Assembly (NCBI GenBank): GCA_963281255.1
Contig: OY725488.1
Coordinates: forward strand, 4,549,925-4,613,924
Length of the DNA: 64,000 nucleotides
Direction: 5' to 3'
Source: Aphrocallistes beatrix
Taxonomy: Eukaryota; Porifera; Hexactinellida; Sceptrulophora; Aphrocallistidae
Position numbers and translations under genes: made by a program. A model generated the notes under the pieces. That model searched no databases, had not been told where the DNA came from, and was given only the letters and a program-made list of their open reading frames with translations. Of this stretch, positions 50,660 through 64,000 are shown in pieces; within the stretch, counting starts at the first letter, position 1, and each line of letters starts with the position of its first letter.

Positions 50660-51520
50660 TTTTATAATCTTAAATGAAAGGCTATATATGATATATATAG
50701 GTTCCTCAAACATCTCTTTGTCGAAAAGTAAATATTTCTCGACTTATCATTGATTTTATTGTAATACAAATTCTATGGAGAACTTTGACTATATTAGAAA
50801 ATGGCGAATCTAGTCATGGAATATGTGCCCAAGCACAAATGTAGCTATGAAACTAAAAAATCAATGCAATTGTCACTCACAATGGGTACAGAAAAATTGG
50901 AGCACTTTCACTATTATTTTCGAAGCCTTATACCTCCCAGATTCGGTTAAAGCCCCCAAATTATGGTCCAAAAACAGATTTCTCCCTATCTCTGGAAATA
51001 TATACCCAAATTCTAGCTCTCAAACCCTAATATACTTTTTATAACAGTATATATATGATTCTTTGCTAATAAATGCACTACGTCCTATAGAATGCTAAGT
51101 TTTAAATTTTTATCACGTGATGACTTAGTATTTTTCGAAAATCCTAACTTTAAAACTAAAAGTCGTAGACTCTCGCCCTAACTTCCTATATACTTTCTAG
51201 AAGCTCTTTATTCATTCTAAACCGATGGATTATACTTTGCAATCCTAGGAGTATGAATTATATCGCCCAATTGGTTCAAATTATTCGGGGGTTAAGGGCA
51301 TCAAGAAAATTTGTGGATTTTAACTATGTTTTTGCTATTTTCACCAAAATATTTTGGCATATATCTAATTCATCTGTATAAATGCGATTAAATCCCCATT
51401 AATACTTTCATTTATCCTTAATAGCTCATTTTACATCGTTTTTTCATTAAAACTTTAAATCCCTATATCTCGGGACTTTATAATTTCAAAATTGACCGTC
51501 TTTAAATAAAAAAGACAATT
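50660..51520. repeat. TTAA element Y, copy 3, fragment
   Basis: Collinear match to about 18530-19400 of Y copy 1, including CGACTTATCATTGATTT and ATTCTATGGAGAACTTTGA. Both ends are missing; it directly abuts R copy I. Confidence 0.75.
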
Positions 51521-52519
51521 GGAAAACTTGCATTCTGCATGAGCAGTAATAGGCATGACTTCATACTAGTATCCAACTAGGATGTGATCTAGACAAACTT
51601 AGCTATTTATCCATAGTTATCTACGCTCTTGATGAATGTCACTAAATTTGTTTACACAATCGATGCATAATTCCTTGTCAATCCATAATTAATTAAATAT
51701 TCCTCATTTTTTCTAATTGATCCCAGCCTAATTAGTATACATATACATATGTTATTTTTGCTCCGAACTAACATTATTCAAACTTGACGTTTTCATACAT
51801 TTTTGTTTTTCGCATATATTCGCATTTCGCCTTTCTCTTTTTGCATTTCGTATTTTGCATTCCGCATTTACATATCGTTCGCTTTTATCTTCTCGATTTT
51901 TCCTCTGACTACTTCCATAATTCCAAGTCAGAAAAGATGAATAATACGGAGATTATTACTTTTTGTCAGGCCTTACTCCAATTAGGATACGATTCTTTTG
52001 AATCTTTAAATTCAGCATTAAATAAAGAAAACATTAAATAAAGAAAAAAGGAGAGGAAGCAATTCTCTTTGGGGAAAATTGTGCATATCGATGTACGGAG
52101 TCAACAGAGAGAGGAAACGCACGTTACTCTATACCAGGGTTTCTTTACCTGGGGTACGCTAGGTGTTTTTCGAGGAGTACGCTGAACCAACTTTAAATGT
52201 CTAGAAGTACGTACTATGAAATTATGTCTGGTAATTACTTCTGATTCGAAACCTGTCAAAAGTAAACCGTAATTATGACAGTACGTATTCTTTGGTTAAT
52301 TTTGTCAGTTTTCTAATTCCCAGTGTATATTTTGACACTAATTTCTGAATGGACAACTAAAAGCTAGGTGGATATTTATGAACTTCATTTGACTATACCA
52401 TTTAGGGTTTCAATTTATAGATATATATTCTAAAAATAAATTGTAAATTTGAACCGTTACTCAAATGACAAATTCATAACTAAGGAATCGGGGGAAAAAC
52501 GAAAATATATTGATAATTA

Positions 52520-55500
52520 CACAGTGGTTTAAAAACACAGTTAGTAAAGAATAGGTATATAGATGCACGTTAGCCCTATCAAATGTATTATATGCATATA
52601 GGTTATCCACCCTTGGAAAACGATTGGCATAATAAAAAATTTTATATGGCTTCAGCTGTGCAAGATATGGCTTCCCCATATTTTGCCGAAATTTGTTCTT
52701 TTGCTCATATTTCTTTCAGATTTTCTATTAGCTCCATGAAATGTATTAGATTCATATAGGTTATCAACCCCTAGAAAGCCATAGGTGCACTCAGAATTGT
52801 TATATGTCTTCGTTTTTTCGAGATATGGTTTACCTAGAATTTGGTGAATATATTTTATATTGCATTTTTCAAAAAAATTTTCCACATCTCAGAAAATCGT
52901 ATAAATATTATGAGATAAACTGTACATCAAAAGTGGGAAAACCCGCAGTACACGATAATTTGATTGTCAAATGAAGACACAATGGTTCTTAATGATGATG
53001 ACAACACACATACACAAATATTGTACTAATCCTATAAATCTAAGTGTTAATTATGAGTGTATCGACAATTGTATCTATTGATGAAAGTGATGAATTATTT
53101 CTGCAACACTTAGCTCTTTTTGTGTGCCCGTGTTCTCCACATCTTTCGCAAACTAACTTTGATCGGAATAGATTTAGTATGGGGTCACTTTCAGAAGCCA
53201 ATCTCACAAAAATGTCGACCACATTGTCTTCAAATGAACACTTCCTAGCGAGATTCTCCCTGTACTTTCTTATTAGCTTGTTACAAGCCTCGGAACCTTC
53301 CTCAGAGAAGCATTTCAAGCCGTGTCCGAAATTCAAGTCGTTCAAAATTTCTTCTGAGTGAGCTAATACGCGATGCAATGTCGGTGTAACGCCTGCCCAA
53401 GGAAACGAGTCCAGAATTAAGAGATAGGTGTTCGTGCATAGATCGCCAAATTCTTCGGTGTGTATCTTCCTGTCTGAATTTATTATTCTAAGAATAGCTG
53501 ACAATCGTGTATGTAATTGTGAAAGTGTCTCCCTGTACTCAATTGCAACACATGACGAAACGCAATCAATAAATTTTGACTCGGAGGAAAAAGCTCGACG
53601 CGCAACACCACCAGTAGAGGTAGTACCCCCCTTAGGATCAGGCTGGTCTATCTTCAAACCAGTCTTCTCTTGTCGAGAGTTCTGACAAAGACCATCGAAT
53701 TTTTAACTGCAGTCGATGTTGGTGACCATGTAAGTTTACCGCAGCTCAAATGATAAACTAGTAGAGTAAACCACCTGAAGATACAAGTGTATGAGTGTAG
53801 AGGAGATGCTGGAAGGATATTTATAGTGGAAGTTGGTTCGTGGGTGAGGTTATAACGTTCGTTTGAGGGTAGAGAAAAGAAAGAATCGTTATCTTCGATT
53901 TCTCCAAATAGTTGAATGGCGTCAGTAATGTGTCTATTGATAGGAAATCCCTGTATTATCAATTCACGATCTTTCAGTTCATCGTGAGTAGCGGTACATA
54001 ATTGGCAACTTGCCCCACCTGCTCCAGATAGAATTGCTGACATTTTCCCATCAAACATTGACCGAACAATGTCGATATGAACTTGTTGATTATCCCCAAG
54101 AGAAAATCCTTCATTCTTCATTAACTTAGTTTCCGGATTGATTAAATCGGTCATGAACTGCTTGATATTATTTTCATTTTCCTTCGCAGCGAGAAGGAAA
54201 ATGGGTCGCTGGGTGAAGGGAGAATTCGGACTGGTGTTTTTCCAGAGTTCTCGACCGCTGAAGGTTGTAATCTGCACTGCCTTAAAACAGAATAGGATGT
54301 ATGCTTTAGTCTCTGTATTCGTGCTAGACTGGTTGTAAATTCTGTGACTTCCGGAGCCATCTAGTCCATCTGCAATCTGAAATCGCAGAGGAAAGTCTTG
54401 AGCTGCAGGAGGAGGTATGGTGAACAAGATTCGGTCGAGTGTATGACGGACGTATTGTGCATATGGTACGTGCGCACCAACTGGAGTAGCAGGATTGGGA
54501 TATAATTGAATAATATTTCGTAAAATAATGCTGTTCCTTTGTTCCACAACCTTATGATATGCAGGGAAATAAATATCGCTAGATAGCAAGTGATGGCGTA
54601 GGTTCGTATACTTTCTCCTCCCAATCTCTAACATATCTACAAGGAATAACGCTTTGCTGACATCCAGTTCTTTCTTCAATATGTTCCCGAATTGACCGGG
54701 GAACTTATCATACACGATTGACTTTGAAACTTTTGCTATCCCACGATTCTCTGTTAGATTGGATAACAGTTGTAAGGCAAGCGCCGCGATTTTTATTTCA
54801 GAGGTATTCTCAATCAGTGAGAGTGACTTGATAGATTCCAGCACACTTGAGAGTCGAGAACGTTGCTGTTGCATGGAAAGATGATCAAGGGTCTTCCTAT
54901 GGGTCACAGAAAGTGTGGCTACTTCTGCTTCGTCGTCTGAAGGCAATTCAAGGGAGTCAGAAATGCGATTTCTTTTCACCTCTGGTTCAGTGGAAATGTT
55001 AGAGTGCCACCATTCTCCCTCTAAACAATCTAAAGATTTCTTTGCTTTCTTGACCCTATCTCGAATTCTGAATAGTATTGATTCCAAACTTTTCTTATCG
55101 AAATCTAATTCGAAGTTTTGTTGTAGGTAATTCACCGTTGTCAAGATACAATTGTTATTTTCTTTTAAGAGTCTTGCAAATTCAATACGGGAATTTGGGA
55201 AAGATAACTTCTCAGCCATGAGGAATGTGTCAATGAATAATGATTAAGAGATTCCAATACTGAAGCTTTTTACATCATCAGACATTTATTTATAATATCG
55301 GTATAGTGTTCATACTTTGAGTTGAAATACGATGAGTGTGGTTGTAAGAATAATATCTTATTTTGTTACATAGTTACAATATTTGACAATGGAATTTGCC
55401 TAACAACAAAAATATGACAATGGAATTCAATATAAAATCTTACTTTGCGCACTGTTTCGGGGCGTATCCGTTTAAACTATGAATTTAGATCTAGGTAGGG

Positions 55501-55942
55501 GTATATTGTATCAATATCTAATTGAAGTTTTGTGAAGTTTACTTTTGCGAGCACTTTTGAATTTTTTATCAAATAAATTTTGATTCTAAGTTAGCAACAA
55601 GTATAGAATTTAATTTCTCAACTGAAATATTGAAAATACTTGAATGAAAACAGGTTATTCGGTTTCAGCATACTTTAAATGTATAAACTAAACTGAATTT
55701 TTCGTCTTGTATTGTTAGAAAATGATTTTGCTTATATTTGAATTGAGGTTAAATTTAGAATTCCCCGGAACCACAATTTTAGCTAAAATGAACATGCATA
55801 TTTGTAAGTGTAATTGTACTGCTTCTAGGCACTCAATTGCTTAGAAAATTGAAACAAGTTTTATTCAAACAATAAGTAATCGAATAAAATCATAGGAAAG
55901 GAGATCTATTTTTTTCCTATTCTTTGGTTCTAAACCACTGTG
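52520..55942 (-). mobile_element. RAG1/Transib-type transposon, complete with both ends
   Basis: Both ends are CACAGTGGTTTA(A/G)AA in inverted orientation; an AAAGAATAGG motif follows further in on each side. Target duplication AATTA is perfect (52515-52519 and 55943-55947), the 5-bp size made by Transib and by RAG. The first seven bases CACAGTG equal the consensus heptamer of vertebrate recombination signals. It encodes one transposase on the minus strand (53040-55219). I find no RAG2-like gene in the 3.4 kb, so Transib is the conservative name. It is inserted in a hAT element, so it arrived later than that one. Confidence 0.93.
53040..55219 (-). pseudogene. RAG1-core-like (Transib) transposase, one frame break
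   Basis: The first frame (55219 to 53654, 521 residues) has no known N-terminal domain. It contains ADGLDGSGSHRIY, whose Asp284 aligns with RAG1 Asp600, and MFDGKMSAILSG, whose Asp390 aligns with Asp708. CQLC (405, 408) aligns with the zinc ligands Cys727/Cys730. The second frame (to 53040, 205 residues) opens GLKIDQPDPKGG..ARRAF as in Transib proteins. It then has HRVLAH (zinc His pair of RAG1 937/942) and FSEEGSEACNKLIRKYRENL, whose Glu aligns with Glu962. Last comes a CCHC zinc knuckle CERCGEHGHTKRAKC. All catalytic and zinc residues I can align are present. The two frames overlap near 53690 and join by a one- or two-base shift (or a tiny intron). Expected function: cut-and-paste at the CACAGTG ends. 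Confidence 0.9.
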
Positions 55943-55984
55943 AATTATATTCAACACACGGTTTCATACTTATGCTGAAAAATG

Positions 55985-63291: not shown

Positions 63292-63749
63292 ACCTCTCCT
63301 TTCGTCTATTATCCTGCCTTTTTTAACATCTGAAATCTGCTCTTCATTAAAATTAATGCCGCTCCCAAAATTATGGATCCCAAGGATAAAATGATGTAAT
63401 TTTAAACCAAGTAAGAATAAACTGGTATCGATAGTAATACGTACGTATTGAATACAGACCTATAGAATATATTATTTACCTATGGGTTATCCATACCTAG
63501 TAATTAATTAGTGAATACTTGTATGCCTTCAGAGTTTTGAGTTATGACGTCATTTTATTTTTGACGCACCCATTTTTTTATTTTCACTTTTGCAATTCTT
63601 TGTATTATTTTACACACACATTTATAGATGATCAAAGTATGCTTCTAAATACATAGACATAACCTAAAGAACTAAATTACGACTTATAGGTGCCATACTA
63701 AGGTTTTACTTAAATTAAATATCAAGATTTTGGAGCATGAGAGAGTCAA
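63292..63749. other. No gene recognised
   Basis: Non-coding, A+T-rich. It lies in the position expected for the 3' non-coding part of the Transib-like element whose coding end is at 63750; no CACAGTG-like terminus was found. Confidence 0.4.
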
Positions 63750-63999
63750 CTAGTTTTCCTGCTCTAAAGATGGCACTCGGTTACCTTTACATTGCATATT
63801 CCTGATATGTCCTATTTGACCACAATGCTTACAAACTAAAGTTATTTTGTAGCTTGAGAGAAGCGGTTCGCTCTGGCTAGGGAGACGTATAAATATATAT
63901 TTAATGTTAGACGTGAAGGAATTTTTTCGGGAGAGATGCTCTCTGAATCGTCCAATTAGCTAATGACAAGCCTCTACCGATTCTTCTGAATATTCCTTT
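63750..63999 (-). pseudogene. RAG1/Transib-type transposase C terminus, second copy, cut by the window edge
   Basis: From the window edge on the minus strand: YSEESVEACH, a TAG, then LIGRFREHLSRKNSF..., IFIRLPSQSEPLL, and a zinc knuckle VCKHCGQIGHIRNMQC, ending at TAG 63750-63752. Compared with the element at 53040-55219 the order is identical: EEGSEACNKLIRKYRENL, IFVRLASESDPIL, VCERCGEHGHTKRAKC. The Glu that aligns with RAG1 Glu962 is kept. One in-frame stop replaces the Lys of ACNK. The rest of the gene lies outside the window, so completeness is unknown. Confidence 0.85.
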
Positions 64000-64000
64000 A

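Follow-up and report, generated by a model that had tools for sequence, protein, structure and literature searches.

A recently mobile Transib-type transposon family with unequal bipartite ends in the glass sponge Aphrocallistes beatrix

Described relatives and the sponge element

Two groups of Transib transposons have been distinguished by Tao et al. 2022 (PMC9435367). Subgroup I displays asymmetric ends and a CTT1 tail, keeps the alpha11-alpha12 region and is closer to RAG1L; Subgroup II comprises most previously identified sequences and has lost alpha11-alpha12. Here we examined a 64,000-nucleotide stretch of DNA from the glass sponge Aphrocallistes beatrix (assembly GCA_963281255.1, contig OY725488.1, positions 4,549,925 to 4,613,924 of the forward strand; hereafter the window), which contains a transposon with a single transposase gene (Table 1). 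It is highly probable that this element is one of an autonomous cut-and-paste family within the RAG1/Transib superfamily, a Transib group of the Subgroup I kind; the family has been mobile recently, and a frame break private to the window copy has disabled that copy. This reading is based on the ends, the 5-bp duplications, empty sites, intact sister genes and a predicted RAG1/HzTransib fold with DDE residues and zinc ligands. It also draws on the presence of one gene only and on the 9-bp offset between the bipartite ends, which are unequal.

The element shares with Subgroup I Transibs (PMC9435367) its unequal, asymmetric bipartite ends, a CTT1-like knuckle, a long zinc-domain insert and the single transposase gene, and as far as sequence features go it fits this subgroup. 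It is ordinary in kind, the Transib type having been known before. HzTransib from Helicoverpa zea (PDB 6pqn/6pqx) shares the DDE core and the zinc ligands, and is the closest in sequence and tied for the closest in fold. On the other hand, it has about 36 fewer residues from CxxC to the LH His than the window transposase, and its ends are symmetric (PMC8289069, in excerpt).

Concerning relatives with two genes, the ends of AanRAGL from Aureococcus anophagefferens consist of 13-bp and 10-bp elements with 4- and 13-bp spacers (PMC9435367). By arithmetic, the second element therefore starts at bases 18 and 27, as it does in the window element. Both make 5-bp duplications, but AanRAGL carries a RAG2-like gene and starts with CACACCC, not CACAGTG (PMC9435367). 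Amphioxus ProtoRAG (BbRAGL) resembles the window element in fold, in the CTT* knuckle, in bipartite unequal ends and in 5-bp duplications; it differs in encoding RAG1L and RAG2L, in its CACTATG termini and in its 27/31 spacers (PMC8289069, in excerpt).

Vertebrate RAG1 and its recombination signals have in common with the sponge element the heptamer CACAGTG, the core fold, the catalytic residues and two unlike ends. The vertebrate signals, however, have 12/23 spacers and a nonamer (consensus ACAAAAACC, from the excerpted PMC8289069), and the offset in the window element is 9, not 11. When compared by eye, the nonamer matched 4/9 bases at positions 20-28 of the 5' side and 2/9 at 31-39 of the 3' side, so that the sponge ends are not 12/23 signals. 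An earlier note on this DNA had stressed that the termini equal the vertebrate heptamer. They do, but the special weight given to this does not hold: heptamers and nonamers of Transib ends have already been described, and some of these are the same as the canonical signals of vertebrates (PMC8355894, as excerpted), so that CACAGTG alone is not new.

Copies, insertion sites and transposase

The window contains ten CACAGTG and two CACTGTG sequences, which form four heptamer pairs spaced 1-8 kb apart. The 52520/55942 pair is the only one with a 5/5 flanking repeat, and also the only one with 12 identical terminal bases. Read on the forward strand, the left terminus is CACAGTG and the right terminus CACTGTG, and both the inverted CACAGTG ends and the perfect AATTA flanking repeat previously claimed for this locus were seen.

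In the genome searched (100.5 Mb in 28 contigs; copy counts are lower bounds), at least five full-length copies were identified, and CACAGTG was present at both ends in 5/5. Four are flanked by exact duplications (AATTA, ATTTG, AATGG and TTTTC) and one by GGATA with one adjoining extra base, so that the CAC heptamer ends and 5-bp duplication of Transib were found throughout, exactly in four copies and with the extra base in the fifth. The copies differ pairwise by only 5-27 substitutions over 3.4 kb, which indicates that movement was recent. An intact single frame of 726 aa is present in three of the five, one copy has a stop, and the frame break of the window copy occurs in none of the other four. 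The insertion had been called probably recent in the earlier note, and both the small differences and the private break agree with this; the copies also settle whether the ends are shared and whether the break is private, two questions left there to other copies.

Duplication of the target was seen directly at one copy, L003, which sits inside a repeat. Five unoccupied copies of this repeat were compared across the junction, and they align to the joined L003 flanks but lack the five additional bases; in one, the target letters are variant. Recent mobility of the window family is well supported. The repeat that served as insertion target in L003, about 490 bp long, is also found in the left flank of the window element (51020-51509) and near the Transib copies L003, L005, L008, L010 and L022.

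These copies also bear on whether the sequence might be a domesticated or fixed RAG1-like host gene and not a mobile element. The open frame conserved in three copies would agree with a host gene. Nevertheless, the sites of the five copies are unrelated, their duplications differ and their ends are nearly identical, and unoccupied target repeats are present. As the insertion sites are distinct, a host gene is refuted for the window family, and we give this explanation practically no chance.

At L029 and L024 (G000:C13:1098915-1104563), the window family has two 5'-side ends that point towards one another at a distance of about 5.6 kb. The flank of one is the exact reverse complement of the other for 25 bases or more, which indicates that a large inverted duplication took in the flanks as well. 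Short non-autonomous copies were considered and rejected: end searches gave 28 and 15 places, which were compared by eye with known copies, fragments and an internal repeat.

In the window copy the transposase is split over two minus-strand frames, with stop-to-stop open reading frames (ORFs) of 529 and 220 aa. An intron at the break was ruled out because three sister copies read through without one. The protein is a RAG1-core-like DDE transposase with CxxC/HxxxxH zinc ligands. The earlier note had correctly recognized Asp390, the Glu and the CxxC/HxxxxH ligands, but had taken Asp284 as the first catalytic residue. Position 284 aligns with a Trp in HzTransib whereas Asp287 is invariant, and the first catalytic Asp is therefore Asp287. 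The terminal CCHC knuckle described in that note is also present, its exact form being CX2CX3GHX5C. The CTT* of invertebrate RAG1L is defined by Cx2Cx3GHx4C (PMC7204232, in excerpt), which is shorter by one residue. Between CxxC and LH there are 66 residues in the window family, 60 in BbRAG1L and 30 in HzTransib; from its place and length, the long zinc-domain insert would represent the alpha11-alpha12 region.

A profile search placed the protein inside the RAG1/Transib superfamily (HzTransib 8e-48, BbRAG1L 1.3e-22, mouse RAG1 1.1e-20), and comparison of the predicted structure agreed, with HzTransib tied for the closest fold. The profile match, the predicted fold and the catalytic residues thus support the assignment to a Transib lineage made beforehand. 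Apart from the transposase frames, the element has no stop-to-stop ORF above 105 aa, and hence no RAG2-like gene. A genome-wide search with PF03089 (RAG2) gave no match in this genome, but none in any of 14 control genomes either, and so carries no weight for RAG2 elsewhere in the genome. The window element itself has the one gene of the Transib superfamily, and not the RAG1L and RAG2L together that characterize RAGL (ProtoRAG-type) transposons.

The element could in principle be a RAGL transposon that has lost its RAG2-like gene. A zinc-domain insert and a CTT-like knuckle are common to RAG1L and the window transposase, and the spacing of the window ends equals that of the RAG2-bearing AanRAGL (PMC9435367). 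However, the nearest solved sequence is HzTransib, with 26% identity against 20% for BbRAG1L and a far stronger profile match (values above). An unrooted tree set mouse RAG1 and BbRAG1L apart from its 18 remaining rows, which include HzTransib (100/99), a result to be read with the long branches and possible false joins in mind. Moreover, the six families with both ends span just 2.9-3.6 kb. We consider such a loss very unlikely, and retain the assignment to the Transib group.

Table 1. Features of the transposon, numbered from the first base of the window
Feature	Position	Strand	Remarks
Whole Transib-type transposon	52520..55942	- (gene strand)	3423 bp; at least 5 full-length genome copies
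Target-site duplication AATTA, left copy	52515..52519		
Target-site duplication AATTA, right copy	55943..55947		
Terminal 13 bp, gene 3' side	52520..52532	+	starts with heptamer CACAGTG
Second end motif AAAGAATAGG, bases 27-36 of 3'-side end	52546..52555	+	13-bp spacer after the 13-bp element
Terminal 13 bp, gene 5' side	55930..55942	-	starts with heptamer CACAGTG
Second end motif AAAGAATAGG, bases 18-27 of 5'-side end	55916..55925	-	4-bp spacer
Transposase gene, single exon	53040..55219	-	726 aa where intact; window copy has a private break near 53.67 kb
Catalytic Asp287 codon (RAG1-type DDE, first residue)	54359..54361	-	invariant in alignment with HzTransib and BbRAG1L
Catalytic Asp390 codon	54050..54052	-	alignment with HzTransib and BbRAG1L
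Catalytic Glu644 codon	53289..53291	-	alignment with HzTransib and BbRAG1L
C-terminal zinc knuckle CX2CX3GHX5C (CTT1/CTT*-like)	53106..53150	-	residues 691-705 of intact protein
Subterminal direct repeat, copy 1	52570..52704	+	72% to copy 2, 136 aligned columns
Subterminal direct repeat, copy 2	52728..52863	+	

Unequal bipartite ends

The two ends of the element are built alike but spaced differently. Read inward, the end 5' of the gene consists of CACAGTGGTTTAG, 4 bp and AAAGAATAGG, and the end 3' of the gene of CACAGTGGTTTAA, 13 bp and AAAGAATAGG. The second motif thus matches at 10/10 bases when read from positions 18 and 27, and +9 is the best offset. These unequal bipartite ends, a new feature here, were missed in the earlier note and are more interesting than the CACAGTG heptamer.

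Other families in the same genome were compared, their two ends having been paired by a script on the first bases; 14/23 loci gave no pair. Two proposed pairs, L036 (0/5 flank match) and L038 (2/5), were dropped, better 3' ends lying elsewhere. L062 (family B2) was kept in spite of a 1/5 flank match, and L059, which is another family C copy and has an exact CCCCG duplication, was not scored separately. For A2, the gene side was deduced from how closely its end resembles that of the window family (A). Matches at 18/27, of 10 bases, were 10 in A, 6 in A2, 6 in B, 7 in B2, 9 in C and 4 in D. The second motif varies in sequence, being AAAGAATAGG in A, AGGGAGTTG in C and CATT/TATT in B, yet its register stays the same. 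The total score for the six families was 41 at +9 and 26 at the next offset, and was reached by 0/20000 shuffles. Without the close relatives A2 and B2, the score at +9 was 27, again reached by 0/20000.

Because the pattern had first been noticed in the window family, scoring was repeated with this family excluded and only families with a 4/5 or 5/5 duplication retained (A2, B, C and D). The score at +9 was 24, the next offset gave 13, and 0/20000 shuffles reached the score at +9, with 3 reaching it when any offset was allowed. When A2 was left out as well, the remaining three (B, C and D) scored 17; 1 of the 20000 reached this at +9 and 84 when any offset was allowed. The L064 pair (2/5 flanks), which lay outside the six-family scoring, was added at this stage.

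A number of results weigh against our reading. The offset +9 is the best in only 4/6 families (A, A2, B and C). B2 scores 7 at +9 against 8 at -2; D scores 3 against 6 at -1, so that the offset is hardly visible; and in the doubtful L064 pair, with 2 at +9 against 4, it is absent. A CTT1-type knuckle was found in 24/51 proteins filtered by tail length (151 in the full set), the other 27/51 being without it, and the intact family B element at L035 has unequal ends yet no C-terminal knuckle. Pfam RAG1 matched the C-terminal frame of the window at a sub-threshold 18.5 bits (cut-off 25) and gave no match to the N-terminal frame. Finally, the tree was built without Subgroup I reference sequences, so that placement in Subgroup I is not given by it.

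The family B element itself (L035, 1271-4275) is 3005 bp long with a 720-aa gene and the duplication GGCTA. One of its ends is CACAATG and the other CACAGTG. The subterminal direct repeat of the window element, which lies in its 3' noncoding part, can be traced in part in this diverged family (73% over 55 bp), and since it is recognizable there, the repeat may be a further binding site.

The 9-bp offset might also reflect chance, or shared ancestry without function, in which case the ends would be effectively symmetric and only the first 13 bp or so would matter. A proposal in the excerpted PMC7204232, that invertebrate RAGL uses mainly the terminal 15-17 bp or so and is relatively insensitive to asymmetry, is in line with this, as are family D and L064, which are without the offset. 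Against it, the register is constant while the motif differs from family to family, and no held-out shuffle in 20000 reached the score at +9. We regard this explanation as unlikely, though it keeps an appreciable chance, and favour a role for the unequal spacing.

By analogy with RAG, ProtoRAG and HzTransib, a transposase dimer would hold one 5'-side and one 3'-side end. The catalytic core would read the CACAGTG heptamer, and the second motif would be read by the C-terminal knuckle and/or by an NBD-like region towards the N-terminus (about residues 106-182). As in RAG and HzTransib, a nick would be made 5' of CAC, followed by hairpins on the flanking DNA, and the blunt element would be pasted with a 5-bp stagger. 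The 9-bp difference, near one helical turn, probably favours the pairing of unlike ends; this is the least certain step. The 18/27 register, long on the 3' gene side in every sponge family that shows it, is shared with AanRAGL. We raise, tentatively, the possibility that it is a functional rule for pairing ends, ancient in the RAG/Transib superfamily, under which the motif was free to change while the register was conserved, and that the vertebrate 12/23 rule is a modified inheritance of it.

Distribution and meaning

A second Transib fragment, of another family, occupies 63718-64000 (minus strand) of the window, runs past its right edge to G000:C1:4614525 and is 81-92% identical to P0042. Four ORFs to the right of the element gave no Pfam match at 0.01.

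Each protein search scored about 8000 candidates, and one listed 120/149 matches. Among the matches listed, most had no name, all named relatives were from the glass sponge Oopsacas minuta, and no named Transib came from outside Oopsacas. Some of these Oopsacas proteins are labelled in UniRef as V(D)J recombination-activating protein. In prokaryote genomes, 69 stretches fitted a pattern and one locus was kept (L040), a 3.3-kb contig of a Candidatus Paceibacter MAG (JABAAK010000070.1) with a Transib end 91% identical over 32 residues. Its positions 1-300 hold a sponge-type Transib 3' end with the heptamer CACAATG and AAAGAATAG from base 27. The contig is probably misbinned sponge DNA, and it was rejected as a bacterial relative. 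A scan of viral contigs matched 23 stretches, none of which encoded a relative.

In their main text, Tao et al. 2022 list as new Transib hosts bacteria, fungi, plants, ctenophores and 'other metazoans', with no mention of sponges (PMC9435367). Our literature search, whose reach did not extend to the supplements of that paper or to most subscription papers, found no title on sponge Transibs. In the excerpts of PMC13337447 and PMC8075586, Transib is discussed solely for vertebrates, deuterostomes or general origin, and the word is absent from those of the glass-sponge genome papers PMC10282587 and PMC10280926. The element is thus a new member of a known Transib type, in a host group for which the search found no report.

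These results indicate glass sponges as hosts of RAG1-like transposons. The Transib transposase is a remote relative of the enzyme that makes the cuts in antibody genes, and the unequal ends echo the paired cutting signals of the immune system. Here a compact animal genome holds a number of families that have diverged from each other, some of them with an intact gene, two ends and a clean duplication. They form a comparative set for testing the role of unequal ends without RAG2, which bears on where the 12/23 rule of antibody-gene assembly came from.
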